Virus record (IMG/VR): IMGVR_UViG_3300017923_000138
Span: 1-23,175 of that record
Length of the DNA: 23,175 bases
Reading direction: 5' to 3' (one strand)
Origin: a virus
Part shown: piece by piece, positions 1,534-23,175 of the stretch
Layout of the letters: every line of letters starts with the position of its first letter
Position numbering within the stretch: the stretch's first letter is position 1
Notes under the pieces: generated by a model
The model's input: the letters and a program-made list of their open reading frames with translations, nothing else
The model's database searches: none
Told to the model about the DNA's origin: nothing
Translations under genes and position numbers: made by a program

Positions 1534-3318
1534 ATGCAACCAACGATAGAGATTTTGGAGAGAATTAGAAAAAACTCACAAAATAACAGGAATGAAGTAT
1601 TTACCCGATTATATCGGTACATGCTCCGACCCGACCTATACTTTATTGCTTACAACAATCTTTATGCTAACAGCGGTGCATCTACTAAAGGTGTTAATGA
1701 TGATACAGCAGACGGATTCAGCGAAGAAAAAGTAGGTAGAATCATTGAAATGTTAGCGAATGAAAGCTATTCACCAACTCCGGTAAGAAGGACGTATATC
1801 AAGAAACCAAATGGAAAAATGCGTCCATTGGGGATTCCAACGTTTACGGATAAACTTATCCAAGAAGTCTTACGCATGATAATGGAAGCTGTCTATGAAC
1901 CGGTTTTTTTAGACTGTTCTCATGGATTCCGACCAAATAGAAGCTGTCACACAGCTTTAGGTGGAATGAAAAGAGGGTTTAATGGAATCAGATGGTTTGT
2001 GGAGGGTGATATAAAGGGGTGTTTTGATAACATCAACCACAATGCGTTAACTGGGTTTATTCGTAATAAAATTGCAGATGCACGTCTAATTAAGTTAATT
2101 TACAAATTCTTAGGAGCAGGGTATTTGGAAGATTGGAAATACCACAACACTTATAGTGGAACACCGCAAGGTGGCATAATATCTCCATTACTAGCAAATA
2201 TCTATCTCCATGAATTAGATGAATTTGTAGAAAAACTTAAAGAAGAATTTGAGCAACCTCGGAAAACCCATACCACCTACGAATACGGAGTGCAGTGGCG
2301 CAAAGTCCAAAAATTGCGTAAAAAGCTGAAAATCGCGGAAGGAAATGAGAAAACCTTACTTCTTGAAGAGCTGAAAGCAGAAAGGAAGGAGTTACTTAAA
2401 ATTCCCTATAAATCACAAACTGATAAAACGCTGAAATATGTGAGGTATGCGGATGATTTCTTGATTGGAATAAATGGAAACAAAGAGGATTGCATTGCAA
2501 TAAAAGAGAAACTCTCTAATTTTGTTGCCAATACTCTAAAAATGGAATTATCCGATGAGAAAACGCTCATTACCCACAGCAATACTTCAGCAAGATTTTT
2601 GGGTTATGATGTACGGGTTAGGAGAAACAATGAAGTAAGAAGTCACGGGTCAGGATATACTCAACGGTCATTGAGTAATACTCTTGAATTAACCGTGCCT
2701 TTAGATGAAAAAATTAAAAAGTTTCTGTTAGAAAAAGGAATAGCCAGACAAATAAATGGTGAATTAAAACCATGGTGTCGCAACGTTATGATAACGCAAA
2801 CGGATTTTGAAATCGTAACATCATTCAATGCTGAATTGCGTGGAATATGCAATTATTACAGCTTAGCCAGTAATTTCAATAAGCTACACTACTTCGCATA
2901 TCTAATGGAATATAGCTGTCTAAAAACGCTTGCAGGTAAACATCGTTCATCAATTGGTAAAATCAAGACCATGTTCAAAGATGAAAAAGGTGGATGGTGT
3001 GTCCCTTATGAAACTTCCAGAGGGAAAAAGAATCTATACTTTGCGGATTTTAGACAATGTAAGGGAAATAAGCATGTAGCAGATAATATGCCGCGAACGT
3101 GGGTGATAAATCAAAATGCCCGAACAACATTTGATAGCCGATTAAAAGCTAAAAGGTGTGAATTATGCGGTAGCGAAACTGCTGAACGTTACGAAATACA
3201 CCATGTCAATAAGGTTAAGAATCTCAAAGGCAAATCAGAATGGGAAAAATATATGATTGCTAAAAAGAGAAAAACCATGGTTGTCTGCTATGATTGCCAC
3301 AGAGAAATCCATAAGTGA
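1534..3318 (+). CDS. ltrA: Group II intron reverse transcriptase/maturase with HNH endonuclease domain
   Basis: Multifunctional intron-encoded protein (594 residues). It helps the intron RNA fold and splice, cuts the target DNA strand, and reverse-transcribes the inserted intron. The start is ATG 1534 behind AGGGAGG. Reverse transcriptase blocks are clear: YIKKPNGKMRPLGIPTFTDK, then FRPNRSCHTAL, the catalytic-block DIKGCFDNINH, GTPQGGIISPLLANIYLHEL and the active-site YADD at residues 305-308. A lysine-rich insertion of about 65 residues lies between the GTPQGG and YADD blocks, a feature of chloroplast-like maturases. The maturase (X) domain follows (ELRGICNYYSLASN around residue 430). The C-terminus (about 542-594) is an HNH endonuclease with CELCGS, EIHHVNK and CYDCHREIHK. 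All key residues are present and no frameshift is visible, so the element is probably active or recently active. Confidence 0.95.
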   Translation: MQPTIEILERIRKNSQNNRNEVFTRLYRYMLRPDLYFIAYNNLYANSGASTKGVNDDTADGFSEEKVGRIIEMLANESYSPTPVRRTYIKKPNGKMRPLGIPTFTDKLIQEVLRMIMEAVYEPVFLDCSHGFRPNRSCHTALGGMKRGFNGIRWFVEGDIKGCFDNINHNALTGFIRNKIADARLIKLIYKFLGAGYLEDWKYHNTYSGTPQGGIISPLLANIYLHELDEFVEKLKEEFEQPRKTHTTYEYGVQWRKVQKLRKKLKIAEGNEKTLLLEELKAERKELLKIPYKSQTDKTLKYVRYADDFLIGINGNKEDCIAIKEKLSNFVANTLKMELSDEKTLITHSNTSARFLGYDVRVRRNNEVRSHGSGYTQRSLSNTLELTVPLDEKIKKFLLEKGIARQINGELKPWCRNVMITQTDFEIVTSFNAELRGICNYYSLASNFNKLHYFAYLMEYSCLKTLAGKHRSSIGKIKTMFKDEKGGWCVPYETSRGKKNLYFADFRQCKGNKHVADNMPRTWVINQNARTTFDSRLKAKRCELCGSETAERYEIHHVNKVKNLKGKSEWEKYMIAKKRKTMVVCYDCHREIHK

Positions 3319-3343
3319 GTTTTAATAATTGAACAATGATGGA

Positions 3344-3377
3344 AAGCCGGATACTTCGAGAGGGGTACGTCCGGTTT
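3344..3377 (+). ncRNA. Group II intron domain V
   Basis: Catalytic hairpin of the intron RNA. The arms AAGCCGG and CCGGTTT enclose the characteristic distal stem and the TACG/bulge region, and the AGC catalytic triad is in the 5' arm. It starts 25 bases after the maturase stop, the normal position. Domain VI with the branch-point adenosine should follow up to about 3430; I did not pin the branch-point base. Confidence 0.8.
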
Positions 3378-3438
3378 GGGGAGGGGTCTGTGCAAACCTG
3401 CTTCGGAAACGTAGCAAGGCGGCACTTTCCTACTCTAC

Positions 3439-4058: not shown

Positions 4059-4406
4059 ATGTCAAAGAAAAGAAGATCATTTACACCCGAATTCAAAGCA
4101 AAAGTTGTACTCGAAGCATTAAGCGGAATCAAAGAGATTAACGAGCTTGCAGCTGAGCATCAGATACAACCGAACTTGATTAGGAACTGGAAACGTGAGT
4201 TCATGGAAAATGCGTCCAAAGCTTTTGATACAAAGGCCGATGAGAAATATACCGACGCTATCAACGAATTACAAGCTGAAAATGATGAGCTAGCTAAAAA
4301 AGTAGGTCGCCAGTCAATAGCCATTGACTGGTTGAAAAAAAAATCTGAGGAAACGCTTGGACCTGACTACGAAAGTAAATTTAGTAAGAAGCCTAAAGGA
4401 ATGTAG
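4059..4406 (+). CDS. IS3-family transposase OrfA (HTH protein)
   Basis: DNA-binding component of an IS3-family transposase, 115 residues. The N-terminus RRSFTPEFKAKVVLEAL is the signature of the HTH_Tnp_1 family, with a helix-turn-helix at about residues 8-50 (INELAAEHQIQPNLIRNWKR). A leucine-zipper-like coiled coil covers about residues 65-95 (INELQAENDELAKKVGRQS), as usual for OrfA oligomerisation. The start is ATG 4059 with only a weak AGCAGG upstream. It overlaps orfB by 50 bases in another frame. A run of nine A (4335-4343) lies before the overlap and could allow slippage into orfB; the required shift is +1 (or -2), not the classical -1. The family call is secure; how OrfB is expressed is open. 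Confidence 0.9.
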   Translation: MSKKRRSFTPEFKAKVVLEALSGIKEINELAAEHQIQPNLIRNWKREFMENASKAFDTKADEKYTDAINELQAENDELAKKVGRQSIAIDWLKKKSEETLGPDYESKFSKKPKGM

Positions 4407-5223
4407 TCCATCAGGGGGCACTCTTCCTACTATAAAAGATGCTGCCAAGCTTCTTGATATCAACCGCACGAGTGTTTATTACAAGGGCCGTATGATGTCT
4501 GATACCGAACTGGAAATCATGAACCATATCGACCGCTTGCATACAGATCATCCCACATGGGGCAAACGCCAACTGGCCTCACAACTTCAGGAGTTGGGTT
4601 ATACAATCGGCAAATACAAAGTCAGACGATTTATGGACCAAATGGGCATCGAAGTCATCTATCCCAAGCCGAATCTCTCGAAACCTATGAAAGGACATAA
4701 GGTTTATCCTTATTTGCTACGCAACAAAACAGTAACAGCACCGAATCAGGTATGGAGCATTGATATCACCTACATCCGATTGAAGCACGGTTTTGTATAT
4801 CTAACTGCCATCATCGACTGGCATAGTCGTTACATCGTTGGATGGCATCTGGATGATACATTGGATACCACTGCTGCCTTGGAGGCAGTCAAGAAGGCTT
4901 TCCTCACTGCCAAGCCGGAAATCTTGAATTCAGATCAAGGCTGTCAATTCACCAGCCATCTGTATACCGATTACTTGAAGGAAAACAATGTCCAAATCAG
5001 CATGGACGGCAAAGGCCGCTGGGCTGACAACATATTGATTGAACGATGGTTCCGTTCACTTAAACACGAAGAAGTGTACTTGAACGAATATCACAACTTA
5101 CGTGATGCCAGAAAGAAAATCGGCAGCTACATCGATATCTACAACTGGACCAGGCATCATTCATCGATTGACTATAAAGCACCCGCTTCACTATATTTTG
5201 GAGCAATGGAAGATGCAGCATAA
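4357..5223 (+). CDS. IS3-family transposase OrfB (DDE integrase core)
   Basis: Catalytic component of the IS3 transposase; with OrfA it excises and inserts the element through an RNase H-fold DDE active site. Counting from TTG 4357 (288 residues), an N-terminal HTH_21-like region (KYKVRRFMDQMGIEVIYPKP) is followed by the rve core. Catalytic D136 is in WSIDITYI, D193 in NSDQGCQFT and E229 in LIERWFRSLKHEEVY. The 35 residues between the second D and E match the DD(35)E rule. The C-terminus ends normally (YNWTRHHSSIDYKAPASLYF). The TTG start is only a proxy: the frame is open from just after the TGA at 4333-4335, so the native product may be an OrfAB fusion made at the nine-A run. No inactivating change is seen. 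Confidence 0.9.
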   Translation: MDLTTKVNLVRSLKECSPSGGTLPTIKDAAKLLDINRTSVYYKGRMMSDTELEIMNHIDRLHTDHPTWGKRQLASQLQELGYTIGKYKVRRFMDQMGIEVIYPKPNLSKPMKGHKVYPYLLRNKTVTAPNQVWSIDITYIRLKHGFVYLTAIIDWHSRYIVGWHLDDTLDTTAALEAVKKAFLTAKPEILNSDQGCQFTSHLYTDYLKENNVQISMDGKGRWADNILIERWFRSLKHEEVYLNEYHNLRDARKKIGSYIDIYNWTRHHSSIDYKAPASLYFGAMEDAA

Positions 5224-5623: not shown

Positions 5624-5989
5624 TTGGCACACGACGTTGAATTTTATCAAAAAGAAAATGGCGAAGTTCCAGTGAAAGACTTCCTAGAATCCTTACCTGT
5701 TAAACTAAGAGCTAAGACTTTTCGAGAAATTGAACTTTTAAAAGATCATGGACTTGACCTGAGAGAACCGCATACAAAATCAATTAAAGGGAAAGATAAT
5801 AAAGGAATTTATGAATTGCGAGTTAAGTTCTCTACGGATATAGCTAGAGTATTCTATTTTGCATATACTGGTAGTAGATTTATCTTGCTCCATGGTTTTG
5901 TGAAAAAAACTAATAAGACTCCTTCGAGGGAACTTGATAGAGCAAGAAAATATAAAGAGGATTATGAAAGAAGGTGTAATGATGAGTAA
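5624..5989 (+). CDS. HigB/RelE-superfamily toxin (phage Gp49-like)
   Basis: Probable ribosome-dependent mRNA interferase of a type II toxin-antitoxin system, 121 residues. It starts at TTG 5624 behind a strong GAGGGGGG. The sequence shows the Gp49-like (PF05973) layout: an N-terminal strand (VEFYQKENGEVPVKDFLESL), a helical pair (KTFREIELLKDHGL), then the strands IYELRVKF, IARVFYFAY and FILLHGFVKKTNKTP. The closing KKTNKTP-x-R-E-x-x-x-A motif is typical of this toxin family. The antitoxin follows with overlapping ends, and the toxin-first order is the HigBA arrangement. The operon reads with the phage late genes but has its own operator. It could stabilise the prophage or act in phage defence; the sequence does not say which. 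Confidence 0.88.
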   Translation: MAHDVEFYQKENGEVPVKDFLESLPVKLRAKTFREIELLKDHGLDLREPHTKSIKGKDNKGIYELRVKFSTDIARVFYFAYTGSRFILLHGFVKKTNKTPSRELDRARKYKEDYERRCNDE

Positions 5990-6287
5990 AGTGAATGTGA
6001 AAACGAAATCTGCCGGAGTAAAGTTCGAAGATATTAAGGCTCAACTTATGGAAGATGCTGAATTTGAAGAAGAGTATAACAAACTACAACCAAGATACGA
6101 ATTGATTTCTCAGATTATCGAAGCAAGAAAAAGCATGAAAATGACTCAAGAAGAATTGGCAAAAAGAGCTGGAACCAGAAAATCTAATATCTCCAGGCTT
6201 GAAAGTGGGTCCTACAATCCATCGTTAGACTTCCTTATTAAAATTGCTAAAAGCTTAGGTAAAGAAGTTCATATAGATATTCGATGA
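5982..6287 (+). CDS. HigA-type antitoxin (XRE-family helix-turn-helix)
   Basis: Antitoxin that should bind and neutralise the upstream toxin and repress the operon, 101 residues from ATG 5982. Two ATGs are adjacent (5979 and 5982); AAAGAAGG at 5967-5974 is better spaced to 5982. The start overlaps the toxin stop (5987-5989), so translation is coupled. A variable, acidic N-terminal segment (about residues 1-45, EDAEFEEEYNKL) is the likely toxin-binding part. An HTH_3 domain follows, MTQEELAKRAGTRKSNISRL, with the recognition helix around TRKSNISRLESG and the canonical NPSLDFLIKIAKSLG after it. The protein ends in a short strand, KEVHIDIR. The perfect palindrome at 5567-5584 is the obvious candidate binding site. 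Confidence 0.9.
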   Translation: MSKVNVKTKSAGVKFEDIKAQLMEDAEFEEEYNKLQPRYELISQIIEARKSMKMTQEELAKRAGTRKSNISRLESGSYNPSLDFLIKIAKSLGKEVHIDIR

Positions 6288-10165: not shown

Positions 10166-11239
10166 ATGAGCTATGATCATATTTTTAATAATACCTTGGC
10201 CATCTGGACAGCCTTTGGTGGCAGGGGCGAGGTTCTCTTTACCATTCCAACACTCAGCTGGACCAAGAAATATTATAACAACTTTGGCTACACCCAATAT
10301 GGCAGTGAGAAGCAGATTAATGTCTATGATAATGGCAACGCGCAGATCGCAGTTTATTATGCAAAGACCCCCTACATGTCTTATTGGAACAAGACCACAA
10401 AGCAGTGGACGGTGGTTAGCGTTCCTTGGTGGAGTTATGGACAGCCGGAGATTCTCTATGCAGCGAATGGTGTGTTTATTGCTAAAATCGTCGGCCTTGC
10501 CAATGTCATCGCTTCCTTTGATGGCATCACATGGCATAATGCTGGATATTGTCCAGGGGCCTATAACGCCATGACCTGTGGGGCTTATGATATGGCAAGA
10601 GGCTCTGGTATCGTCAGTTGGTGGTACTACAAGTCACCGGTCTATTACAGCTTTGATTCTCTAGAGGAAAGAACCGCATGGACCTTGGTTGGATCTGATG
10701 GTACTTCAGTACCGATCTTTAAATACTTGACCACCCATAAAGGAAACTTTGTGGGCGTGGTTGGTGGCGATAAATCCATCGCAATAGCTAGTTCAGCCAG
10801 TCCTGGTCTTTGGACCACGACCATACCAGAGGATGTGAACGACACCCGTTATATGTTTATCCGGTCCGTGAATGACGTCCTCTTCGTGATGAAGTTTAAC
10901 TACACCAATGTGGGCGGCGAGTACACCTACTATGTAAAGCTCTGTGTAATGAGTGATGATGCCACGCAGATTACAGAGACCAATCTTTCCTGGGTAGGAG
11001 ATCTGGCCAACAACAATATCCCTAATCCAAGGAATATCATCTGGATGGTGGACTGGGGCAAGTTTGCACTTCTGAAAGAGAGTATGCTCTGTGTCTCCAA
11101 TGATGGACTGAACTGGGAGGGTGTAGAGCAGCCGGGCTTAACCACAAGCCAGTATGACACCTTTGACGGTGCAATCTATATTCCTGGTGATGGATTCTAC
11201 GCCAAAGCAAGTGGCTATGTATATCACGCTCCGTATTAA
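10166..11239 (+). CDS. Putative tail-tip beta-propeller protein
   Basis: Protein of 357 residues, starting at ATG 10166 behind AAAGGAGGG, of a type commonly left as hypothetical in prophage tail modules. It is rich in Trp, Tyr and Gly. It contains Asp-box-like turns, SFDGITWHNAG at about residues 118-128 and SNDGLNWEGV near residue 310, separated by strand-rich repeats (GNFVGVVGGDKSIAIASSAS; KFALLKESMLCVSNDGLNW). That pattern suggests a beta-propeller of the sialidase/BNR-like fold, without evidence of enzyme activity. Its position after the Tal-type gene and before the lysis genes is where receptor-binding or tip proteins are found. The propeller fold is an inference from motif spacing; host-binding is an inference from position. 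Confidence 0.55.
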   Translation: MSYDHIFNNTLAIWTAFGGRGEVLFTIPTLSWTKKYYNNFGYTQYGSEKQINVYDNGNAQIAVYYAKTPYMSYWNKTTKQWTVVSVPWWSYGQPEILYAANGVFIAKIVGLANVIASFDGITWHNAGYCPGAYNAMTCGAYDMARGSGIVSWWYYKSPVYYSFDSLEERTAWTLVGSDGTSVPIFKYLTTHKGNFVGVVGGDKSIAIASSASPGLWTTTIPEDVNDTRYMFIRSVNDVLFVMKFNYTNVGGEYTYYVKLCVMSDDATQITETNLSWVGDLANNNIPNPRNIIWMVDWGKFALLKESMLCVSNDGLNWEGVEQPGLTTSQYDTFDGAIYIPGDGFYAKASGYVYHAPY

Positions 11240-12875: not shown

Positions 12876-12939
12876 AAGAGTTTGATTGATAAACAAAAAG
12901 GTCGTCAGGTTGAAAAAGGATAAAGGAAGGAGGAAGAAC

Positions 12940-14580
12940 ATGGCTGAATCGTTGTATGAAAGTGGATTTTATGACAGCATTGATTTTCAATCCCAAGAGA
13001 GGCAAGTCATTGAAATTGGAATGAAAACTCAAGTGGCTTCAACAACATCAAATATTAAGGAAGAAGCAAAAAGACTTAGAGTTTGTGCGTATTGTCGAGT
13101 GAGTACAGAAGAAGAAATGCAAATGAACTCCCTTGAAAATCAAACAATTCATTACACAAACTACATTAGAAATAATACTGAATGGATGTTTGTGGGCATC
13201 TACTCTGACAGGGGCAAGTCTGGAACTAAAAGGGCCCATAGAGCGGGATTCAATAAGATGATGCGCCATGCCCTGGAAGGAAATATTGACTTGATTTTAT
13301 GTAAGTCTATCTCAAGGTTTGCTAGAAATGTCATGGACACATTAGAAGCAATTAGAGTGCTCAAAGAAAATGGAATCAGAGTTATCTTTGAAAAGGAATC
13401 CGTTGATACAGGCAGTATGGAAAGTGAATTTATTTTGACTATGTTATCGGTGGTCGCACAAGAAGAAAGTAGAATGATTTCAGAAAATCTAAGTTGGGCG
13501 CATACAAAAAGGTTCTCAAGTGGAAAGCCTTTATTCACAAGAATTCTAGGTTATAAAAAAGTGAATGGTGTTCCCTGGACCATTGATTTGGAGGAAGCAA
13601 AGATTGTAAGGGAGACTTACGACTTGTATTTAGAAGGCTACAGCCTGGTCGCTATAGCCAGAAAATTTATAAGTAAAGGTTATAAAAAACCAAATGGTCG
13701 CATTGACTGGAAGGATTCAAATATCAAAAGTATTTTGAGCAACGAACGTTATGTTGGTGATGCTCTTTGTCAAAAGACTTATACAATAGATTATCTAACG
13801 CATGAAACCAAAGTAAATAATGGAGAAAGGCCTCAGTATTATATAAGCAATCATCATGAGCCAATTGTTGATAGAAAAGTCTATGACAGAGTTCAGAGAA
13901 TTCTTGAGAAAAAATCAGTCGCATATTCCAGAAGTAGTAAGAATATAAACGAGTTCACAAGCAGAATCAAGTGTGGGTGTTGTGGGAAGAACTATCATCG
14001 ATATGTTGGTAGGAAAAGAGTGCTATGGAGATGCTCGAGCAGACTTAAAAGCAAACTGCTTTGCGAAATGGAAGCAATCGATGAACAAGATATTGTAAGG
14101 ACGTTAAAAAGAGAATTCACCAGGAAGTATCTGGACGATGGCACCAGCGTAAATAAAAAACTTGTCATTAATTTGATCAAAGAACTCAAAAATATTGAGT
14201 TAAATCGAGAGTCAGAGCAAAGTTGGTTAAGGCTTTCTTTAGAAAAAGCATTGGTGGATGAAAACAGAGCGATTATGGAACTTCGGGATGAGTCAGCATT
14301 TAAGGAAAAACGGATTCAAGTTGAAGAACAATTAGAATCAAAAAAGCATCTATGGGAGTTTATCGATAAGGATGCTGAGTACAGGGAAGGTGCAATAAAG
14401 TCATTAGAGAAAATTAAAGATACCACCAGACTTGTGCAAGGAATGAATGATTTATCTGAAGATATTAGTTTTCTAAGAGCGTGGTTTATCAGAATGACTT
14501 ATACGGAAAAAGGAACGCTGCTTTTATTTTGGGCAAATGGAGATATGAAAGAAGTCAAAATTGAGAAAGGAGAAGATTGA
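12940..14580 (+). CDS. Large serine recombinase 1
   Basis: Site-specific DNA recombinase acting through a 5' phosphoserine intermediate; 546 residues. ATG 12940 behind GGAAGGAGG is preferred to the TTG at 12886, which lacks a ribosome binding site. The resolvase domain covers about residues 46-200: RVCAYCRVS contains the catalytic S55, followed by IYSDRGKSGTKRAHRAGFNK, DLILCKSISRFARNVMDTLE and VVAQEESRMIS. The Recombinase domain (PF07508) continues (GYKKVNGVPW to YVGDALCQKTY). A zinc ribbon uses C345, C348, C365 and C375. A coiled coil follows near residues 400-500. The ~45-residue N-terminal extension before the catalytic core is shared by all recombinases of this cluster. It is two bases from the next recombinase gene and probably co-translated. 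No key residue is missing. Confidence 0.95.
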   Translation: MAESLYESGFYDSIDFQSQERQVIEIGMKTQVASTTSNIKEEAKRLRVCAYCRVSTEEEMQMNSLENQTIHYTNYIRNNTEWMFVGIYSDRGKSGTKRAHRAGFNKMMRHALEGNIDLILCKSISRFARNVMDTLEAIRVLKENGIRVIFEKESVDTGSMESEFILTMLSVVAQEESRMISENLSWAHTKRFSSGKPLFTRILGYKKVNGVPWTIDLEEAKIVRETYDLYLEGYSLVAIARKFISKGYKKPNGRIDWKDSNIKSILSNERYVGDALCQKTYTIDYLTHETKVNNGERPQYYISNHHEPIVDRKVYDRVQRILEKKSVAYSRSSKNINEFTSRIKCGCCGKNYHRYVGRKRVLWRCSSRLKSKLLCEMEAIDEQDIVRTLKREFTRKYLDDGTSVNKKLVINLIKELKNIELNRESEQSWLRLSLEKALVDENRAIMELRDESAFKEKRIQVEEQLESKKHLWEFIDKDAEYREGAIKSLEKIKDTTRLVQGMNDLSEDISFLRAWFIRMTYTEKGTLLLFWANGDMKEVKIEKGED

Positions 14581-14582
14581 TT

Positions 14583-16250
14583 ATGCAGACAAATTTGTCA
14601 ACAAGTATGAACCCTAAAGTCCGGATTATTCCAGTAGTTAGCAGAACGGGAAGAAGCGATGAACATCATGATGGAAGGAAAAAAAGAATCGCAGCCTATG
14701 CCCGTGTGTCGACCTTGCTTGAACATCAAGCGTCCTCTTATGAACTTCAGGTTTCATATTATACGGATTATATAAAGAAGAACCCAGCCTGGGAGCTTTA
14801 TAAAATCTACACAGACGAAGGAATTACGGGTACAAACACAAAGAACAGAACGGGATTTCTTGAGATGATTGAAGATGCCAAAGCGGGAAAAATCGACTAC
14901 ATTCTAACAAAATCCATCAGCCGATTCGCTAGAAACACCCTTGATTGCTTGAGCTATGTAAGGTTATTAAAGAACTTAGATCCCCAGGTCGGCGTATTTT
15001 TTGAGAAGGAAAATTTGGACACACTCGACTCAAAATCAGAGCTATTTTTGACAATTTTAAGCTCCCTCGCGCAGGAAGAATCAAAATCATTAAGCATGAA
15101 TGCTACCTGGGGTGTAACAAAGCGTTTCTCTCAAGGTAAGCCTCATATACCAACCACATACTTTCTAGGATACGATACGAATGAAGATGGGAAGATTGTT
15201 ATTCTAGAAAAAGAAGCAGAAGTTGTGAGGCGGATATTTAGAGAATTTATAGAAGGAAAAGGAACAGCAAGGATCGCTAAAGGGTTGATGAAAGATGGCG
15301 TTTTAACAGCAAGGGGCAAGAAAACCTGGACCAGCGATTCAATTCGAAAAATATTGATCCAAGAAAAATATACAGGAGATTGCGTGGCACAGAAGACGGT
15401 AACAATAGACTTTTTAAGCCATAAAAGAGTTCCTAATAAAGACCACAAACCGAAATATTACATCCAAAATCACCATCCTGCAATTATCTCAAAAGAGGAT
15501 TGGGATAAGGTTCAAAAGGAGCTCATAAGAAGAAACGATCTACTAAGAAATCCCGAAAAGAAGTATAGGATGACCTATAGCGGGAAATCCGTATTTTCCA
15601 ATATGTTGTTTTGCGGGAAATGTGGCAGACCCGTTACACGCAGACGAATGACCTCATCAAAAAATGGTGAAAAATATCACTTTACAACATGGCACTGCAG
15701 GGTAGCAGCACATAGGGATATAGACAAAGGCATCAAATGTAATGCGAGTTATGTATGGGAAGAAGTATTGGAGAAAGCCTTCATGAAGATTCTCCAAGAG
15801 ATGAATGATGATCGTGATGAAGTGATCCGTGAAGCGCGACTCGCCAGTGAAGATTATGCCCTTACAGAAGCGGAGCAGGAAAAACTGGTCGAACTAGAGA
15901 CGAAGCTTGAACACATCACTAACAGAATCAGTGATTTGGCGGCGAGAGAATCAGCTACAAGTGATCCAGTATATGATGCAACAATGCGACATATGATTTA
16001 TGAGCAAGAGATCATTCAGCTCGAGTATGAGAATTTAAGCAAGATGGAAAGCGAAAGCATATTTATAAAGAAACATTTAGAAGAGTTCATTGAAAGTTTG
16101 GATGACTTGAGTGATGACGATGGCTTTCGAGAAGATATTTTTGTAAAGACCATTGAAAAAGGTGTGGTGCATGACAATCATCAAGTCGATTTCCATTTTA
16201 AATGCGGCATTAAATGGAGCATCAGCGCTGACCGTAAAGATTACATGTAG
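14583..16250 (+). CDS. Large serine recombinase 2
   Basis: Second recombinase of the cluster, 555 residues from ATG 14583 (AAAGGAG at 14566-14572 is ten bases away; the TTG at 14577 is too close to it). The catalytic serine is S43 in RIAAYARVST. The rest of the resolvase core is intact: YTDEGITGTNTKNRTGFLEM, DYILTKSISRFARNTLDCL and LAQEESKSLSMN. The Recombinase domain has IRKILIQEKYTGDCVAQKTV and HHPAIISKEDWDKVQ. A zinc ribbon begins C344-GK-C347 and closes with later Cys residues (TTWHC, KCN). A C-terminal coiled coil spans about residues 420-510. It is divergent from recombinase 1, so it is not a recent tandem duplicate. The tight packing suggests that the products act together or at different sites of the same element. 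Confidence 0.95.
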   Translation: MQTNLSTSMNPKVRIIPVVSRTGRSDEHHDGRKKRIAAYARVSTLLEHQASSYELQVSYYTDYIKKNPAWELYKIYTDEGITGTNTKNRTGFLEMIEDAKAGKIDYILTKSISRFARNTLDCLSYVRLLKNLDPQVGVFFEKENLDTLDSKSELFLTILSSLAQEESKSLSMNATWGVTKRFSQGKPHIPTTYFLGYDTNEDGKIVILEKEAEVVRRIFREFIEGKGTARIAKGLMKDGVLTARGKKTWTSDSIRKILIQEKYTGDCVAQKTVTIDFLSHKRVPNKDHKPKYYIQNHHPAIISKEDWDKVQKELIRRNDLLRNPEKKYRMTYSGKSVFSNMLFCGKCGRPVTRRRMTSSKNGEKYHFTTWHCRVAAHRDIDKGIKCNASYVWEEVLEKAFMKILQEMNDDRDEVIREARLASEDYALTEAEQEKLVELETKLEHITNRISDLAARESATSDPVYDATMRHMIYEQEIIQLEYENLSKMESESIFIKKHLEEFIESLDDLSDDDGFREDIFVKTIEKGVVHDNHQVDFHFKCGIKWSISADRKDYM

Positions 16251-16274
16251 GCAGCCGAGCCAAATCATGAAAAC

Positions 16275-16299
16275 AAACGCCTTAATACTGTAGGTGTTT
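16275..16299. repeat. Short inverted repeat between recombinase genes 2 and 3
   Basis: Arms AAACGCCT and AGGTGTTT (one G.T) with a 9-base loop. No T tract follows, so termination is doubtful. Confidence 0.35.
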
Positions 16300-16367
16300 A
16301 ACATAGAAAGATGAAAACTCCCTCAATCAGGATAAAGTACTTGCATTATATCCTGTACAGAGTGAAC

Positions 16368-16386
16368 ATACCTAGTAGCTAGGTAT
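16368..16386. promoter_or_regulatory. Perfect palindrome upstream of the fused recombinase gene
   Basis: ATACCTAG-TAG-CTAGGTAT, 8-base arms with a 3-base centre, ends 27 bases before the start codon and 11 bases before the AGAGGAG. It could be an operator or a recombinase-binding half-site pair. A weak -35 like TTGCAT sits at 16341-16346. Confidence 0.5.
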
Positions 16387-16413
16387 ATCACCGAAAAGAG
16401 AGGAGTTTTTTCT

Positions 16414-19400
16414 ATGGGCAAAACATCAGATGATGCTGTAAATAAAGCAACTGTTTATCAGTTGGATGAAATTGAAAACATGAATCCCAATGATACGAGG
16501 CAGTGGGTTCAAACATTATGGAACCCTTTAGATGAAAAGAGGAAAAGTCCGCTTGAAAGAACGGATGATGAAGTAAGGGTAGCCGCCTATTGCAGGGTTA
16601 GTCCAACACCGAACAAAAGAGGAAGATCCCTTCAAAATCAGATGAGTCATTATACAGAACTAATTCGGAATAAACCTAACTGGAAGTTTGTCGGGATCTA
16701 TTTTGATGATAATATTTCTGGCAGGACAATAAAGGATAGACGTAGTTTTAAGAGAATGCTCCGCCATGCCGAAGAAGGCAAATTGGACCTAATCATCACC
16801 AAAAGTGTGCAGCGATTCTCAAGGAATACAAAAGAACTACTTGAAGCCGTTGAAGAACTAAAAGGACATGGCACCGGGGTATATTTCGAGAAAGAGCGAA
16901 TTGACACATCCATCGATTATAATGCTTTTTTATTATCAACCTATGGCAGTCTTTCTCAAGCTGAAGTGGAAGCAATGTCAGAGCTGGGCAAGTGGGGAAT
17001 AGAGCAAAGACTATTAAGCGGTCGACCATATTTCCAGAAGACTTATGGATATGAACTGGTAAAAGGTTCTGGTAGATCGGAACTTAGGATTATTAATGAA
17101 GAAGCAGACGTTGTTAGGTGGATTTACAGAGAATACCTCAACGGCAAATCTCAGACAGACATCATGAGAACATTGACCCTTAGTGGTATCAAGACGCCTA
17201 GAGGACTGGATACATGGAACATTTCATCAGTAAAGAAGATATTAACCCTCCCGATTTATACAGGGAATTACATTGGTAGAACGACAAACAAGGATCTTAT
17301 GACGAACAGGGTTAGGTCATCAAAGGGCATGAGAGATAAGATTTTAATTGAAAATGCAAATCCACCGATCATTGATTTGGAGACCTTCGAGAAAGTGCAA
17401 AAGCTTATTGAAGACAATAGACCAAATAAAACCACGACCTCAAAAAAGACATTCAGCCCTTTTGCAGGGCGGATTATATGCGGTTATTGCGGGAACATCC
17501 ATTATAGAACAACAGACCGAGTGAAAGCAGCATATTGGGGTTGCAAGTTGCGTGTGGGGCATAAGGAACTATGTCCTACAAGTTATATCAGGGAAGAAGT
17601 TATGCGCGATATCCTTCAAAGAGGCTTTGAGGAATGGTTTGATTTTGGATCTGATAGAACAGTTAAAGAGCTGGAGCAAATGATAGAGTGGGTAAATAAG
17701 AATGACCATTTCGAATTTCATCGGCTCAAATACTTAACGGAAATTGAGATTGCGGAACATTTAATCGGATCCAGATTTACGCTAGAGGATGTTGAAGATA
17801 AGCGTAAACAATATGGAGAATTCGAAGATAAAATCAATCAGATAGAGGATGATAGGCAGTACAGGGACCAGGCTCTTGACTGGCTTAGTGAGGGAAAGGA
17901 TTCAGTGGCTTTCTTAACTGAGCTAACACTGGAGCTCATGAGAGCCTGGATTTTTACTGTTACTATATATTCTGACGAGAATTATACGATTCACTGGATT
18001 AATGGCAGCGAAACGAGTGTGGGTGATGTTGAGCTTTGCAAAAGTAAAGCTGAGGATTTCCGAAAATCTAGAGACGCCAAAATTGAGCAAACGGAACTCA
18101 TATCCGGACCTGATGCCACAATTGACAATGAACGTGAGGCCAAGACATTAAGTACTGAAAATTTGATATCAAGAGCTTCATATGGACCGGACACTAAAAA
18201 TAACAGGATAGAGAAATTAGAGAGTCTTCATTCAAGTGAAGGCATCAAAGAATACGGGAGAAGGGAGGAAATCGACGTGGCATTACCCCAAGTAACACAG
18301 ATTGATCATCAGCAGCATATGCAGTTAATGAGTCGCATCCATAAAAACGTAAAAGACAATTATCACCCAAAGATTGAGACTAAAAAGAAGTTAAAGGTCG
18401 CTGCCTACGTTCGAGTGTCGACCGATAAGGAAGAACAAGAGACAAGTCTAAAAACCCAAATAGCTTTTTATACCTACGCCATTCTCAAAAATCCCGAGTA
18501 TCAGTTTGCTGGTATCTATGTAGATGAAGGCATTACAGGAACTTCAACAAGACACCGTGAAGGATTCAATAGAATGATTGCTGATTGCAAAGCAGGAAAA
18601 ATCAATTTGATTCTGACAAAATCATTGTCACGGTTTAGTCGAAATACTATTGATGCAATTAAGTATGTACGGATCTTGAGAGAATTAGAGTCACCGACTT
18701 ATATTATTTTCGAGAAAGAAAATATTTCATCAGAAGATGATACCAGCGAGCTTATGGTCAGCTTGATGGGAGCCTTAGCACAGCAGGAGAGTAGAAATAT
18801 TGGAAGTTCCATCTCCTGGGGTAAACGAGCGCTGGCCAGTAGAGGGATAGTCAGGCCAAGAAGGCTTAACTATGGGTATGAATACAACGAGAATAAAGAG
18901 TGGGTCATCAAAGAAGAGGAAGCAGTAATTGTTAGGCGCATATATACGGATTACTTGAACGGGGTCAGACGAGCAGATATCTTTAAAAGACTTAATGATG
19001 AGGGTATCGTGCCACCATGTGGTTCCGGACTTTGGAGCAATTCCTCCATTCAAAACATCCTGGTGAATGTTGTTTACAAAGGGGATTACATTCACAATCA
19101 AAAATATAAAAATCCAGAACGTAAACAACCGCTTGTTCCAAACCGGGGAGAGCTGCCGATGATTCATATTGAGGATCACCACCCGGCCATTATTGAGAAG
19201 GACATGTGGGATGAAGTACAACAAATGAGAGCTGAGAGACAAAAAAGTGTGAAAAGAGTTCATCTCGGTTTTGAAAAAGAGGAAGTAAAAAATGAAGCTT
19301 TTACTGATAAATTTAAATGTGGAGAATGTGGTAGAACAGTTGGATTTGGAAGATATATAAATAGAAAAAGAGTTCAAAAGCTTGATGATAAAACAGGTGA

Positions 19401-20352
19401 AATTGAGAGGAAAAAGATCAAGAAAAAATCAAGCGTTACACTATTTTGGCGCTGTGGTTATGGCCTGCAGAATATGCTTCAGGCGTGTGATGCTAAACAG
19501 TTCAATCAAGAATATCTAGAAATCAATTTTCAGCATTTGCTGGTTGAAATGATTTCAAATCCTGAATTTAAGGCTTACTATGAAAAGCAAATGGATGAGC
19601 TTGAGATAAGTGAAGAAGAGCTAAGTATGGAGAAACAGCTGATAGATAGAATGAATGAGCTGTATCAAAAACTTTACGAAGCGGTGGATGAGGAGCTCAA
19701 CAAAAAGGGCAGAGACTCCCAGCGAATTGATATGCTTACGAGCAAGATTGTGGCAATACAGGAACAACTGAAAATCTACACAGAGAAAAGAGAGCAGCAA
19801 CAATTTCTACAATCAGAAATGGAGTGGTTCTTTAATAGCTACAAACTTCAGGATCTTTTAGGAAAGAAGAGAAGAATGAATTTTTATGGGTTCGATCAAA
19901 CCAAGTACGGAAAATCACTGCTTCCATCAAAGGTTTTAGAGACGGGTCTTAAGGTCGAAGAAGCAAGCTTTAACAGAGAATTATTTGAGAGGCTGATTGA
20001 ATCTGGCATAATCTATAAAGATGGGACAATGGTGTTCAATCTGAAAGTCGGGCTTGAGTGGTCCACGCCGGTAACTTATGAGAACTATAAAAAGCTCATC
20101 ACTAAGCGAAGGAAGCTTGATAACTTTTTGAAGCGACTGGATTTTTTAAACGGACCTGAAATAAAAAAGCTTATGAAGTATTGCCGAACGCCTAGAACTA
20201 GCCATGAGATGTTAGCATTCATGGGAGATGTGATGACAATTGAACATTTCAGGACAACGATAATCAACCCATTGGTTGAAATGGATAGACTGAAACGGAC
20301 GATTCCAGAATATATCTACAGCCATGATCAGAAGTATTATACGGAAAGCTGA
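16414..20352 (+). CDS. Double large serine recombinase (two complete units fused) with winged-helix-like C-terminus
   Basis: One open frame of 1312 residues with two full recombinases, about twice the usual length. The start is ATG 16414 behind AGAGGAG. Unit 1 (to about 560): catalytic S63 in VAAYCRVS, DLIITKSVQRFSRNTKELLE, a zinc ribbon from C356/C359 (ICGYCGN), then a coiled region. A polar linker (about 565-640) joins it to unit 2: catalytic S669 in VAAYVRVST, IYVDEGITGTSTRHREGFNR, LILTKSLSRFSRNTIDAIK, a zinc ribbon from C969/C972 (KCGECGR) and a long coiled coil (about 1045-1130). Residues 1247-1312 (PRTSHEMLAFMGD, FRTTIINPLVEMDRL) look like a winged helix of the kind at the C-termini of RecG-like/AlbA_2 and Fic proteins. 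An internal AAGGGAGG and in-frame GTG (18277) suggest that the second unit was, or still is, also translated separately. Confidence 0.92.
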   Translation: MGKTSDDAVNKATVYQLDEIENMNPNDTRQWVQTLWNPLDEKRKSPLERTDDEVRVAAYCRVSPTPNKRGRSLQNQMSHYTELIRNKPNWKFVGIYFDDNISGRTIKDRRSFKRMLRHAEEGKLDLIITKSVQRFSRNTKELLEAVEELKGHGTGVYFEKERIDTSIDYNAFLLSTYGSLSQAEVEAMSELGKWGIEQRLLSGRPYFQKTYGYELVKGSGRSELRIINEEADVVRWIYREYLNGKSQTDIMRTLTLSGIKTPRGLDTWNISSVKKILTLPIYTGNYIGRTTNKDLMTNRVRSSKGMRDKILIENANPPIIDLETFEKVQKLIEDNRPNKTTTSKKTFSPFAGRIICGYCGNIHYRTTDRVKAAYWGCKLRVGHKELCPTSYIREEVMRDILQRGFEEWFDFGSDRTVKELEQMIEWVNKNDHFEFHRLKYLTEIEIAEHLIGSRFTLEDVEDKRKQYGEFEDKINQIEDDRQYRDQALDWLSEGKDSVAFLTELTLELMRAWIFTVTIYSDENYTIHWINGSETSVGDVELCKSKAEDFRKSRDAKIEQTELISGPDATIDNEREAKTLSTENLISRASYGPDTKNNRIEKLESLHSSEGIKEYGRREEIDVALPQVTQIDHQQHMQLMSRIHKNVKDNYHPKIETKKKLKVAAYVRVSTDKEEQETSLKTQIAFYTYAILKNPEYQFAGIYVDEGITGTSTRHREGFNRMIADCKAGKINLILTKSLSRFSRNTIDAIKYVRILRELESPTYIIFEKENISSEDDTSELMVSLMGALAQQESRNIGSSISWGKRALASRGIVRPRRLNYGYEYNENKEWVIKEEEAVIVRRIYTDYLNGVRRADIFKRLNDEGIVPPCGSGLWSNSSIQNILVNVVYKGDYIHNQKYKNPERKQPLVPNRGELPMIHIEDHHPAIIEKDMWDEVQQMRAERQKSVKRVHLGFEKEEVKNEAFTDKFKCGECGRTVGFGRYINRKRVQKLDDKTGEIERKKIKKKSSVTLFWRCGYGLQNMLQACDAKQFNQEYLEINFQHLLVEMISNPEFKAYYEKQMDELEISEEELSMEKQLIDRMNELYQKLYEAVDEELNKKGRDSQRIDMLTSKIVAIQEQLKIYTEKREQQQFLQSEMEWFFNSYKLQDLLGKKRRMNFYGFDQTKYGKSLLPSKVLETGLKVEEASFNRELFERLIESGIIYKDGTMVFNLKVGLEWSTPVTYENYKKLITKRRKLDNFLKRLDFLNGPEIKKLMKYCRTPRTSHEMLAFMGDVMTIEHFRTTIINPLVEMDRLKRTIPEYIYSHDQKYYTES
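18261..18279 (+). promoter_or_regulatory. Internal ribosome binding site and GTG start inside the fused recombinase
   Basis: AAGGGAGG at 18261-18268 lies eight bases before GTG 18277-18279, which is in frame and would start at residue 622 of the fusion (VALPQVTQID). The encoded product would be a 691-residue single recombinase with its own ~47-residue N-terminal extension, matching the layout of the other units in the cluster. Confidence 0.65.
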
Positions 20353-20447
20353 AATTTTGAAGTAATGAATTTTCGAATTTTGTCGATATAAATACTAATC
20401 CGGGGTATAATAATGACAAGAGTAATAGTCGCAAAAATAAAAAATTC

Positions 20448-20476
20448 TTGAAAGATATTCTGAATGATGGTAAAAT
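20448..20476 (+). promoter_or_regulatory. Promoter upstream of the GNAT pair
   Basis: TTGAAA (20448-20453), a 17-base spacer and TAAAAT (20471-20476). It lies after the recombinase stop and 110 bases before the small gene's start. Confidence 0.6.
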
Positions 20477-20501
20477 GGTCTAACTAGAAAAATTAGGAAT
20501 C

Positions 20502-20530
20502 TAGCCAATCAAGGCAGAATATGATATAAT
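20502..20530 (+). promoter_or_regulatory. Second promoter upstream of the GNAT pair, extended -10
   Basis: TAGCCA (20502-20507), a 17-base spacer and a perfect TATAAT (20525-20530) preceded by TGA, an extended -10. It is 56 bases before the small gene's start. Confidence 0.6.
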
Positions 20531-20586
20531 GTATATGTATCAAAAGAATGAGTAAGGCATATTATAATAGCAAAGGAGGGATTAGA

Positions 20587-20760
20587 ATGGCCACATCATC
20601 TTTTAATAAGGATTTCACGTTGAATACCAAGAAGGCTGTGGAGTCATTCGAGAGAATTGTTTCCACTCCTAACAAAAGCGTTAAAATAAATAGAAACTTG
20701 GTATCGCCTGAAAAAGAGAGGCGAGGTGAGCAAAAATTAAAACAAATGTTATCTCGCTAA
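20587..20760 (+). CDS. Small protein upstream of a GNAT-fold protein, candidate antitoxin
   Basis: Protein of 57 residues. ATG 20587 is behind AAAGGAGGG (20572-20580); the in-frame ATG at 20548 has no ribosome binding site and is rejected. The sequence is highly charged, with TLNTKKAVESFERIVSTPNK in the middle and a basic C-terminus (SPEKERRGEQKLKQMLSR). I recognise no named domain. Small proteins of this appearance often precede GNAT-fold genes in Firmicutes, and the size, charge and tight coupling to the next gene (14 bases) fit an antitoxin that binds DNA or its partner. This is inference. Two promoters upstream give it transcription independent of the recombinase cluster, as expected for an addiction module or for host genes next to the prophage end. 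Confidence 0.6.
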   Translation: MATSSFNKDFTLNTKKAVESFERIVSTPNKSVKINRNLVSPEKERRGEQKLKQMLSR

Positions 20761-20774
20761 AAAGACTAATAGAA

Positions 20775-21341
20775 ATGAGTGATGAGACTAAAGCTCAAGA
20801 ACTTATTTCTATTTTTGTTTGTGAAAAAGATGCAGACATCGAAAACTTTCTTAAAAGCAGGGCAATCCAATTTGAGAAATTAGGTAAGAGTAGAACCTTT
20901 TTCATTTATGATGAAGATCAGGATGAGTTCCAGATTCTTGCCTACTTCACGCTAGCTATACAGGTGTTGAAAATTCCAGAGGGTATGCTTTCTGGAAACA
21001 AAGTTAAAAAGCTAGATGGACTGAGTGCCAACATGCGAGGGAGTCGTATCACGGAGTTTCCGTCTATTCTAATTGGACAGCTTGGGAAAAATGAAATGTA
21101 TCCAGGAGTTATCTCTGGATCAGATGTATTGGAATATTGTTTGGCCACAATTTTTGAAGGACAAGCCCGATTAGGTGGAAGAATAATCATGTTGGAATGT
21201 AAAGATATTCCTTACTTGATTAGTTTGTACGAGAAGTTCGGATTTAATGTATTGGAAAGAGAATATGGAGAAGGAGAACTTCTGCAGATGATTAAGATTC
21301 TTGAAGAAGATGAAATTATCGAACCTAAAGAAGAAGTTTAA
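20775..21341 (+). CDS. GNAT-fold protein, candidate acetyltransferase toxin
   Basis: Protein of 188 residues starting at ATG 20775. It has no strong ribosome binding site, so translation is probably coupled to the gene 14 bases upstream. The middle shows a GNAT-like layout: strand FFIYDEDQDEFQILAYFTLA, a long insert (about 75-105), EYCLATIFEGQARLGGRII as the probable acetyl-CoA-binding segment, and the very typical LISLYEKFGFNVLER near the end. GNAT toxins such as TacT and AtaT acetylate charged tRNAs and pair with ribbon-helix-helix antitoxins. The partner here is not visibly ribbon-helix-helix, so this may be a different branch. The glycine motif (Q-A-R-L-G-G-R) is only a partial match to R/Q-x-x-G-x-G/A. 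It could instead be an ordinary acetyltransferase. Confidence 0.65.
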   Translation: MSDETKAQELISIFVCEKDADIENFLKSRAIQFEKLGKSRTFFIYDEDQDEFQILAYFTLAIQVLKIPEGMLSGNKVKKLDGLSANMRGSRITEFPSILIGQLGKNEMYPGVISGSDVLEYCLATIFEGQARLGGRIIMLECKDIPYLISLYEKFGFNVLEREYGEGELLQMIKILEEDEIIEPKEEV

Positions 21342-21735: not shown

Positions 21736-22050
21736 TCCTTACAGTATAATGTATAAAACTACATATTGTATTTTAGACAACTTAAATACATTAACAACCA
21801 CAATATATTGTGTTTTTATCCATCTCGTATCATGCCGACGTGAGTATGGTGAAAGGATAAAGAGGGTCTATCCCAGTAATATCAACAGTCCTAACAGAAA
21901 AGCAAAAATGTACATTTCAATTCAATACAAAAATAGATAGAAAATACAGATCAGATTAAAATACATAAATTAGAAATCAAGAAGGTGCTAAATACATAAA
22001 AGCACCTCTATACAATACATAGACTTTAGATTAGGAAGGATGACGGTAAT

Positions 22051-23175
22051 ATGGCTGAGAATAAAAAAATCTGGCTAGCTTCACCACACATGAGTGATGA
22101 AGGTTATGAAATGCAATATGTACAAGAAGCATTCGATACAAACTGGGTAGCACCACTTGGTCCAAATGTAAATGAGTTTGAGAAAGAACTAGCAGCTAAA
22201 GTTGGTTCAAAACACGCTGCAGCTATGACTTCTGGTACAGGAGCCATTCATCTAGCGCTTAAAGCTGCTGGTGTCGGTGAAGGTGATATCGTATTCTGCC
22301 CAACTCTAACTTTCTCAGCTACAGCCAATCCAATCATCTATCAGAACGCTACTCCTGTTTTCATTGACAGTGATTATGAAACATGGAATATGGACGCATC
22401 AGCATTAGAGGCAGCCTTCGAGAAGTATGGAGATAAGGTAAAGGCTGTTTTAGTGGTGCATTTATATGGTCTTTCTGCAGATATGGATAAGATTATGGAG
22501 ATTTGTCGTAAGTATGATGTGACTGTCATTGAAGATGCTGCAGAGTCTTTAGGTGCTTATTATAAAGGAAAACATACTGGCACCTTTGGTGAGTTTGGAG
22601 TGTTTAGTTTTAATGGGAACAAGATTATCACTACTTCGGGTGGTGGGATGCTTGTTTCAGATGATGAAGAGAAAATCAAGAAAGTTAGGTTCTGGTCCAC
22701 TCAGTCCAGAGATGCAGCAAGGCACTACCAGCATAGCGAATTAGGGTTCAATTACCGTATGAGCAATGTCGTTGCTGGGATTGGTAGAGGGCAGCTTAAG
22801 GTGCTAGACCAGAGAGTGGCTAAGAAGAAATATATATTTGAGTTTTATAAGAGAGAATTAGGTAGTTTTGAAGGTGTGGACTTCATGCCAATTAATGACT
22901 GGAACGAACCTAATTACTGGCTTAGTGTTATGACGCTGAATGGGAACGTGAGACCTCTTGATGTTATGGAAGCACTGGAGAAAGAAAATATTGAATCAAG
23001 ACCAGTCTGGAAGCCAATGCATATGCAGCCGTTCTTTGCTGAGTATGATTATGTTGGTGGAGATGTTAGTGCGAAGTTGTTTGAGAACGGTGTGTGTTTG
23101 CCATCTGATACGAAAATGACGGATGAGGATCTTGAGAGAATTTGTTCAATTATAAAGGGACTGTGGTCCAAATAA
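22051..23175 (+). CDS. DegT/DnrJ/EryC1/StrS family PLP-dependent aminotransferase
   Basis: Pyridoxal-phosphate enzyme that aminates a keto sugar on a nucleotide carrier, used in making amino sugars for surface polysaccharides or protein glycans. The 374 residues are complete; ATG 22051 follows AGGAAGG, and TAA is the last codon of the window. Family landmarks: NWVAPLGPNVNEFEKELA near the start, TSGTGAIHLAL (phosphate-binding region), PTLTFSATANPI, VVHLYGLSADMDKI, EDAAESLGA (Asp contacting the PLP ring) and FSFNGNKIITTSGGG with K191 as the Schiff-base lysine. Its closest named relatives by pattern are PglE, LegC and EpsN transaminases of the bacillosamine/legionaminic acid type; I cannot separate these by eye. 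It is unrelated to the phage genes and is probably host, perhaps heading a polysaccharide operon that continues to the right. Confidence 0.93.
   Translation: MAENKKIWLASPHMSDEGYEMQYVQEAFDTNWVAPLGPNVNEFEKELAAKVGSKHAAAMTSGTGAIHLALKAAGVGEGDIVFCPTLTFSATANPIIYQNATPVFIDSDYETWNMDASALEAAFEKYGDKVKAVLVVHLYGLSADMDKIMEICRKYDVTVIEDAAESLGAYYKGKHTGTFGEFGVFSFNGNKIITTSGGGMLVSDDEEKIKKVRFWSTQSRDAARHYQHSELGFNYRMSNVVAGIGRGQLKVLDQRVAKKKYIFEFYKRELGSFEGVDFMPINDWNEPNYWLSVMTLNGNVRPLDVMEALEKENIESRPVWKPMHMQPFFAEYDYVGGDVSAKLFENGVCLPSDTKMTDEDLERICSIIKGLWSK

Follow-up and report, generated by a model that had tools for sequence, protein, structure and literature searches.

Phage integrases of the large serine recombinase (LSR) type, such as those of SPbeta (YokA), Bxb1, phiC31 and A118, act as four copies of one subunit encoded by one gene, and the general view of serine integrases is one of tetramers built from identical subunits. 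Elements that carry two or three separate LSR genes are already known. The staphylococcal cassette chromosome (SCC) elements have a pair of different LSR (Ccr) genes within one element. The Tn1806-like integrative and conjugative elements contain three separate serine integrases and undergo nested integration into another mobile element; their targets are hsdM, snf2 and methylase genes and not genes of recombinases (PMC12942858). The locus described here lies in a stretch of 23,175 nucleotides (the window), positions 1 to 23,175 of the IMG/VR virus record IMGVR_UViG_3300017923_000138, which covers part of the genome only. It includes a gene, CD, in which two complete LSR units, C and then D, share a single frame of 1312 codons (16414-20352, on the plus strand, like the other parts of the module, the acetyltransferase-like gene, the prophage end and the aminotransferase gene given below). 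CD probably represents an ancient, natural, single-chain pair of paralogous LSRs, and the third gene of a prophage integrase module, A-B-[CD].

Each half of CD is an ordinary LSR, resembling the phage integrases named above in domain order and fold, and the A-B-CD module also resembles them in its place beside the prophage attachment site. However, in contrast to the single-gene integrases, the window encodes four different units, of which C and D are joined in a chain that has an internal start, and the whole subfamily departs from the one LSR unit per polypeptide of the canonical homotetrameric enzyme. The best relatives in NCBIfam are CcrA, CcrB and CcrC, with scores of 213, 189 and 103 bits falling far below the cut-offs of 900, 900 and 700, and the Ccr genes are separate and their elements are not phages. 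The Tn1806-like elements, compared by description only, share with the family of the window the presence of several LSRs per element and nested integration, while the gene plan differs. In the open-access literature, no report was found to match either a natural fused or tandem pair of serine recombinases or the use of LSR/integrase genes as attachment sites for such prophages.

The frame of CD is open throughout, and its Pfam matches above the cut-off comprise two Resolvase domains (PF00239), two Recombinase domains (PF07508) and one zinc ribbon. The latter (PF13408) belongs to unit C; its counterpart in D stays below the Pfam cut-off and was recognised by four cysteines invariant in the family (C969, C972, C1014 and C1025). 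Both catalytic serines, S63 in C (codon 16600-16602) and S669 in D (codon 18418-18420), are also invariant. Thus, each half has the resolvase domain with catalytic serine, the PF07508 domain and the zinc ribbon expected of an LSR, and an earlier reading of the window, made from the letters alone (the sequence-only reading), was borne out in its description of two complete LSRs in one frame, each with a serine and a zinc ribbon of its own. D carries, in addition, an extra C-terminal domain (20146-20349), winged-helix-like by resemblance only, which is conserved in most of the fused relatives and missing from one subclade of short proteins.

CD does not stand alone. Directly 5' of it, and on the same strand, lie two further full LSR genes, A (12886-14580, 564 residues) and B (14577-16250, 557 residues), overlapping by 4 bases and each with Resolvase, Recombinase and zinc-ribbon domains, so that the window has three LSR genes with four units between them; neither A nor B is mentioned in the sequence-only reading. 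When the fused protein and alignments of it were used as queries, counterparts of CD in the same single frame, with identities as low as about 33%, were found in some 20 other viral contigs, in the isolate genome of Anaerotalea alkaliphila and in one named gut phage from human faeces (PV036459.1), placed in 'Ca. Heliusvirales'. Nearly all the loci with enough sequence have A (about 550 residues) first, B (about 560 residues) second and CD (1104-1309 residues) third, on one strand. The pair of LSRs first noticed is therefore real, but the functional unit is larger, A, B and CD together. Departures from this layout are few. In locus L145, an 8-base insertion in the linker places C and D in separate frames, while D is interrupted in L135 and L140. 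Also, Anaerotalea has a stand-alone C-like gene (536 residues) at the end of one contig (G003:C15) and a stand-alone D-like gene (546 residues) at the start of another (C14), two contig ends which do not overlap. Open frames of 946-1390 residues in other genomes were considered as further double LSRs and dropped, the gene calls having given separate genes. Another common LSR layout (L020, L081, L082, L083, L085 and L088) consists of two full LSR genes flanking one short gene of 137-305 residues, whose similarity to LSRs is weak and partial.

The fusion is older than the diversification of the known family. In a FastTree phylogeny of 161 LSR units, all the C halves fall into one clade and all the D halves into another (support 0.997 each), and the fusion is therefore ancestral. 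Since the stand-alone C and D of Anaerotalea nest within these clades beside fused sequences (support 1.0), they are secondary splits. A and B each form a clade of their own, and their nearest relatives, in two other genomes (L153 and L154), are A-B pairs with no further LSR in the stretch read, in line with which CD may have been added onto an older two-gene A-B system. The suggestion of the sequence-only reading that two adjacent genes had been fused through stop-loss probably holds as regards the joining of two genes with the ribosome site of the second one kept; a recent or sample-specific event does not agree with an ancestral fusion.

Both halves are complete and under purifying selection, and are catalytically intact as judged from the sequences. 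In an alignment of 21 fused proteins, both halves show no or almost no variation in the catalytic serines, the arginines of the catalytic motifs and the zinc ligands. In seven pairs, the ratio of nonsynonymous to synonymous substitution rates (dN/dS) came to 0.02-0.20 for the domains of C and D, wherever an estimate was possible (some cells had a saturated dS), against 0.24-0.93 for the linker; a short N-terminal stretch of D gave 0.30 in one pair, on five changes. This linker, which in the window occupies 18049-18276, upstream of the internal start, is variable, and in the relatives its length ranges from 80 to 114 residues, with the frame always kept. An AlphaFold2 model of the relative L125 (1115 residues; mean per-residue confidence, pLDDT, of 72; predicted template modelling score, pTM, of 0.53) contains two LSR units, with long helices where the C-terminal coiled coil of an LSR is expected, and a stretch between the units (530-611) with a pLDDT below 50, that is, a linker predicted to be disordered. 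Both halves of the model align to full-length LSR structures (the SPbeta, phiC31 and Bxb1 integrases). Residues 29-513 matched the SPbeta integrase (9y66) with a Z of 16.8 and a root-mean-square deviation (rmsd) of 20.3 over 359 residues, which, given this rmsd, is a match domain by domain and not as a single rigid body, and residues 613-1109 matched the phiC31 integrase (9rah) with a Z of 12.4 and an rmsd of 20.9 over 372.

Ahead of D, the window has a ribosome-binding site, GGGAGG, followed by a GTG start (18263-18279), as had been pointed out in the sequence-only reading. An in-frame start preceded by a Shine-Dalgarno-like motif of at least 5 matched bases was present in 25 of the 27 fused genes, 0.2 being expected per stretch, when scored against the full anti-Shine-Dalgarno complement in the range of 25-80 codons before the D catalytic motif, with the expectation taken from the rate elsewhere within the same genes. 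An alternative score gave 21 of 27 (0.15 expected). The 27 genes are related and hence do not amount to 27 independent trials, and the exact position of the start varies by subclade (37, 39, 40 or 61-62 codons from the catalytic motif), the range in the fused genes being 37-42 codons apart from the one subclade at 61-62. Protein identity rises across the start codon, from 60% in the 20 residues before to 100% in the 20 residues after in the subclade of the window, and from 71% to 96% and from 69% to 91% in two others; a fourth subclade has no such rise (53% to 55%, also 20 residues each side). Moreover, the naturally split D of Anaerotalea begins about 42 codons before the catalytic motif, matching the internal start of the fused genes. 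Taken together, the conserved start, the rise in identity and the split D make it likely that both full-length CD and a free D, predicted to have 691 residues (18277-20352), are produced. The dual output proposed earlier is in this way strongly suggested, at the level of sequence conservation.

Upstream of CD, most of the family has a structured RNA leader of about 105 nt (16305-16416 in the window), whose motif can be aligned across the family and whose 5' arm pairs with the Shine-Dalgarno region of CD in an outer stem. Its fold was far more stable than that of shuffled sequences in the seven cases tested, with z-scores of -5.6 in the window and -5.6 to -6.9 in six relatives; the outer stem was not seen in L125 and L126. 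No Rfam family matches the leader, and RNAalifold on its MAFFT alignment returned only five pairs, probably because the arms are misregistered in that alignment, so that covariation in the outer stem was not demonstrated. In IS10 and IS50, protection against read-through transcription is achieved by locking the ribosome site of the recombination protein in an RNA stem. The CD leader likewise places the ribosome site in a stem, but is larger and is conserved in a phage integrase operon. It may shield CD from read-through translation or act as a sensor. The alternative of a second promoter at this position was dropped, the spacing of the motifs varying among relatives while the RNA fold was strong in each one tested. 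Also, the GAGTGATATATA motif, which recurs upstream of A and at the left ends of prophages, was considered as an attachment element and set aside; since it occurs upstream of unrelated LSR genes too, with a TTGACT-like box, it is more likely a promoter.

The position of the module with respect to the prophage ends indicates its role. In the window, an end sequence, ...TTTTTATCCATCTCGTATCATGCCG, stops at 21837, 1.5 kb past CD, and homology to the chromosome of a relative (G012), which has no insertion at this place, begins at 21842 and precedes a DegT gene. The right end of the prophage, an attR-like junction, was accordingly placed at 21790-21842, from the sequence common to two Anaerotalea prophage ends and from the homology to the empty site in G012. 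Beyond it lies the host chromosomal gene of a DegT/DnrJ-type aminotransferase, recognised by Pfam and 92% identical in G012, a genome of the host family; this gene runs off the window (22051-23175). The same type of end, with small differences, follows two CD copies of Anaerotalea, where it is joined to the N-E-K-F codons of another LSR gene. After modules of the C'D' subfamily comes a second type, TTTTTATCCTTTTAGATTCGAGG; in five loci it abuts the F-E-K-E codons that A, B, C and D genes have in the catalytic domain, and L136 represents a degenerate case. Modules of the PV036459.1 subfamily are followed by a third type, which is joined close to the A-Q-E-E-S codons of B genes. Ends and modules are thus matched in type, as would be the case if the site were chosen by the module, and the module lies beside the prophage end wherever an end was found. 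With an adjoining attachment site that varies with the module, as seen at the right ends, the A-B-CD module is best read as a prophage integrase.

Several of these ends fall within LSR genes, including those of the window. The end of another prophage, in the record G001, joins at a point corresponding to 15003-15005, within B; from this point, G001 has the sequence of the window at 100% identity over 5758 bases (15003-20760). The same prophage end is joined in Anaerotalea to a truncated CD copy at a point corresponding to 16887-16889, within C; in fact, as position 33864 of Anaerotalea equals 16887 of the window, this prophage junction lies inside the fused gene itself. The right ends joined to F-E-K-E or A-Q-E-E-S codons of LSR genes were located at 33864 and 45743 of G003:C15, 86207 of G001 (reversed), 10790 of L097, 10777 of L099, and 6006 of both L133 and L147. 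It thus appears that related prophages insert into each other's recombinase genes and split the genes of their rivals. A further prophage end, at 10535 of L126, is joined inside a homologue of the tail-region gene at 10166-11239 of the window, and some of these phages may therefore insert into a structural gene of a rival.

From the observed anatomy, conservation and association with prophage ends, we infer how subunits may be paired, in what stoichiometry, and how direction may be set. CD would work at one attachment site as a ready-made C-D heterodimer, leaving to A and B the partner site or the two remaining places in the tetramer, and the four catalytic subunits of a synaptic complex could come from a single chain each of A, B and CD. 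A fixed heterodimer, or else a change in the control of direction, had been suggested as a possibility in the sequence-only reading. Free D would tune the stoichiometry or the direction, and the leader would limit the translation of CD. A more demanding version can be put forward only tentatively, namely an obligate heterotetrameric integrase in which four paralogous LSRs each have their own half-site, C-D being a single-chain dimer and free D a switch of directionality or stoichiometry, and in which the phages attach at the conserved active-site codons of rival recombinases, the fused gene included, thereby disabling the resident. Some observations weigh against the proposal of a single-chain pair within an integrase module. 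The covalent link between C and D is not strictly required, because the two frames are separated in L145 and both units stand alone in Anaerotalea; in two of the 27 fused genes no internal start can be recognised, and in a few others it is weak; and the pTM of the L125 model is only 0.53. The 1A:1B:1CD stoichiometry is arithmetic and not data, C and D could act as separate subunits after proteolysis or be joined by a neutral tether, and the nested prophages are known from right ends alone, excision with restoration of the interrupted gene being presumed.

The strongest of the rival explanations builds on these points: the stop of C would have been lost long ago, the two units would work as separate subunits on a floppy and perhaps cleaved linker, and the internal start would supply the D that is needed. 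The fast evolution and predicted disorder of the linker agree with such a neutral fusion, as does a tether which could be lost in L145 and Anaerotalea. Nevertheless, more than 20 diverged genes have kept some 80-114 weakly constrained codons free of stops and in frame, splits being rare, which makes this explanation unlikely compared with a built-in pair. If one half were instead a catalytically dead copy with a structural or regulatory role, CD would amount to one enzyme with an attached DNA-binding module; the halves do differ, most D units having the extra C-terminal domain, but the near-invariance of serines, catalytic arginines and zinc ligands in the 21 proteins, together with a dN/dS of 0.02-0.14 in both catalytic domains where estimable, leaves it with little probability. 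A role of the module in DNA inversion or resolution within the phage, and not in integration, would agree with the DNA invertase label of PHROG 125. This is improbable to a similar extent or slightly more so, since the module adjoins each prophage end found, modules of different type have different end sequences and targets, and no other integrase gene is present in the window, which spans part of the prophage only. An assembly error near the junction, or a recent stop-loss limited to this sample, is ruled out for practical purposes: the same fused frame occurs in independent records and in an isolate genome, down to 33% identity, and is ancestral in the tree. The sequence-only reading had named uniformly split relatives as the finding that would count against the fusion, and the reverse was found, the relatives being almost uniformly fused.

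A natural single-chain pair with two further paralogues and an internal start bears on the questions of what distinguishes the four half-sites and what sets the direction, representing subunit pairing fixed by evolution and not by engineering. CD could yield asymmetric integration tools whose halves can be mutated separately. Also, insertion of one prophage into the integrase gene of another would represent direct competition between phages.

Other genes of the window and of its relatives deserve mention. Between CD and the prophage end there is a cargo slot, occupied in the window (20580-21341) by a short open reading frame and an acetyltransferase-like gene (20775-21341, PHROG 1758), and in L005 (3678-5388) and L155 (1952-3731) by AbiEi/AbiEii-like pairs, recognised by eye. 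Among the phage tail genes of the window lie a group II intron (1534-3438), comprising a reverse transcriptase/maturase with an HNH domain (1534-3318) and an intron RNA match to Rfam RF00029 (3342-3438), and an inserted IS3-type transposase pair (HTH_Tnp_1 and integrase core; 4059-5223). A probable toxin-antitoxin pair, judged from the translations only, follows at 5624-6287, with a Gp49/HigB-like protein and then an XRE-type helix-turn-helix protein. Finally, just upstream of the endolysin gene of L007 (1042-2986), an ATPase and a small protein resembling RloA/RloB by eye are possibly defence genes.

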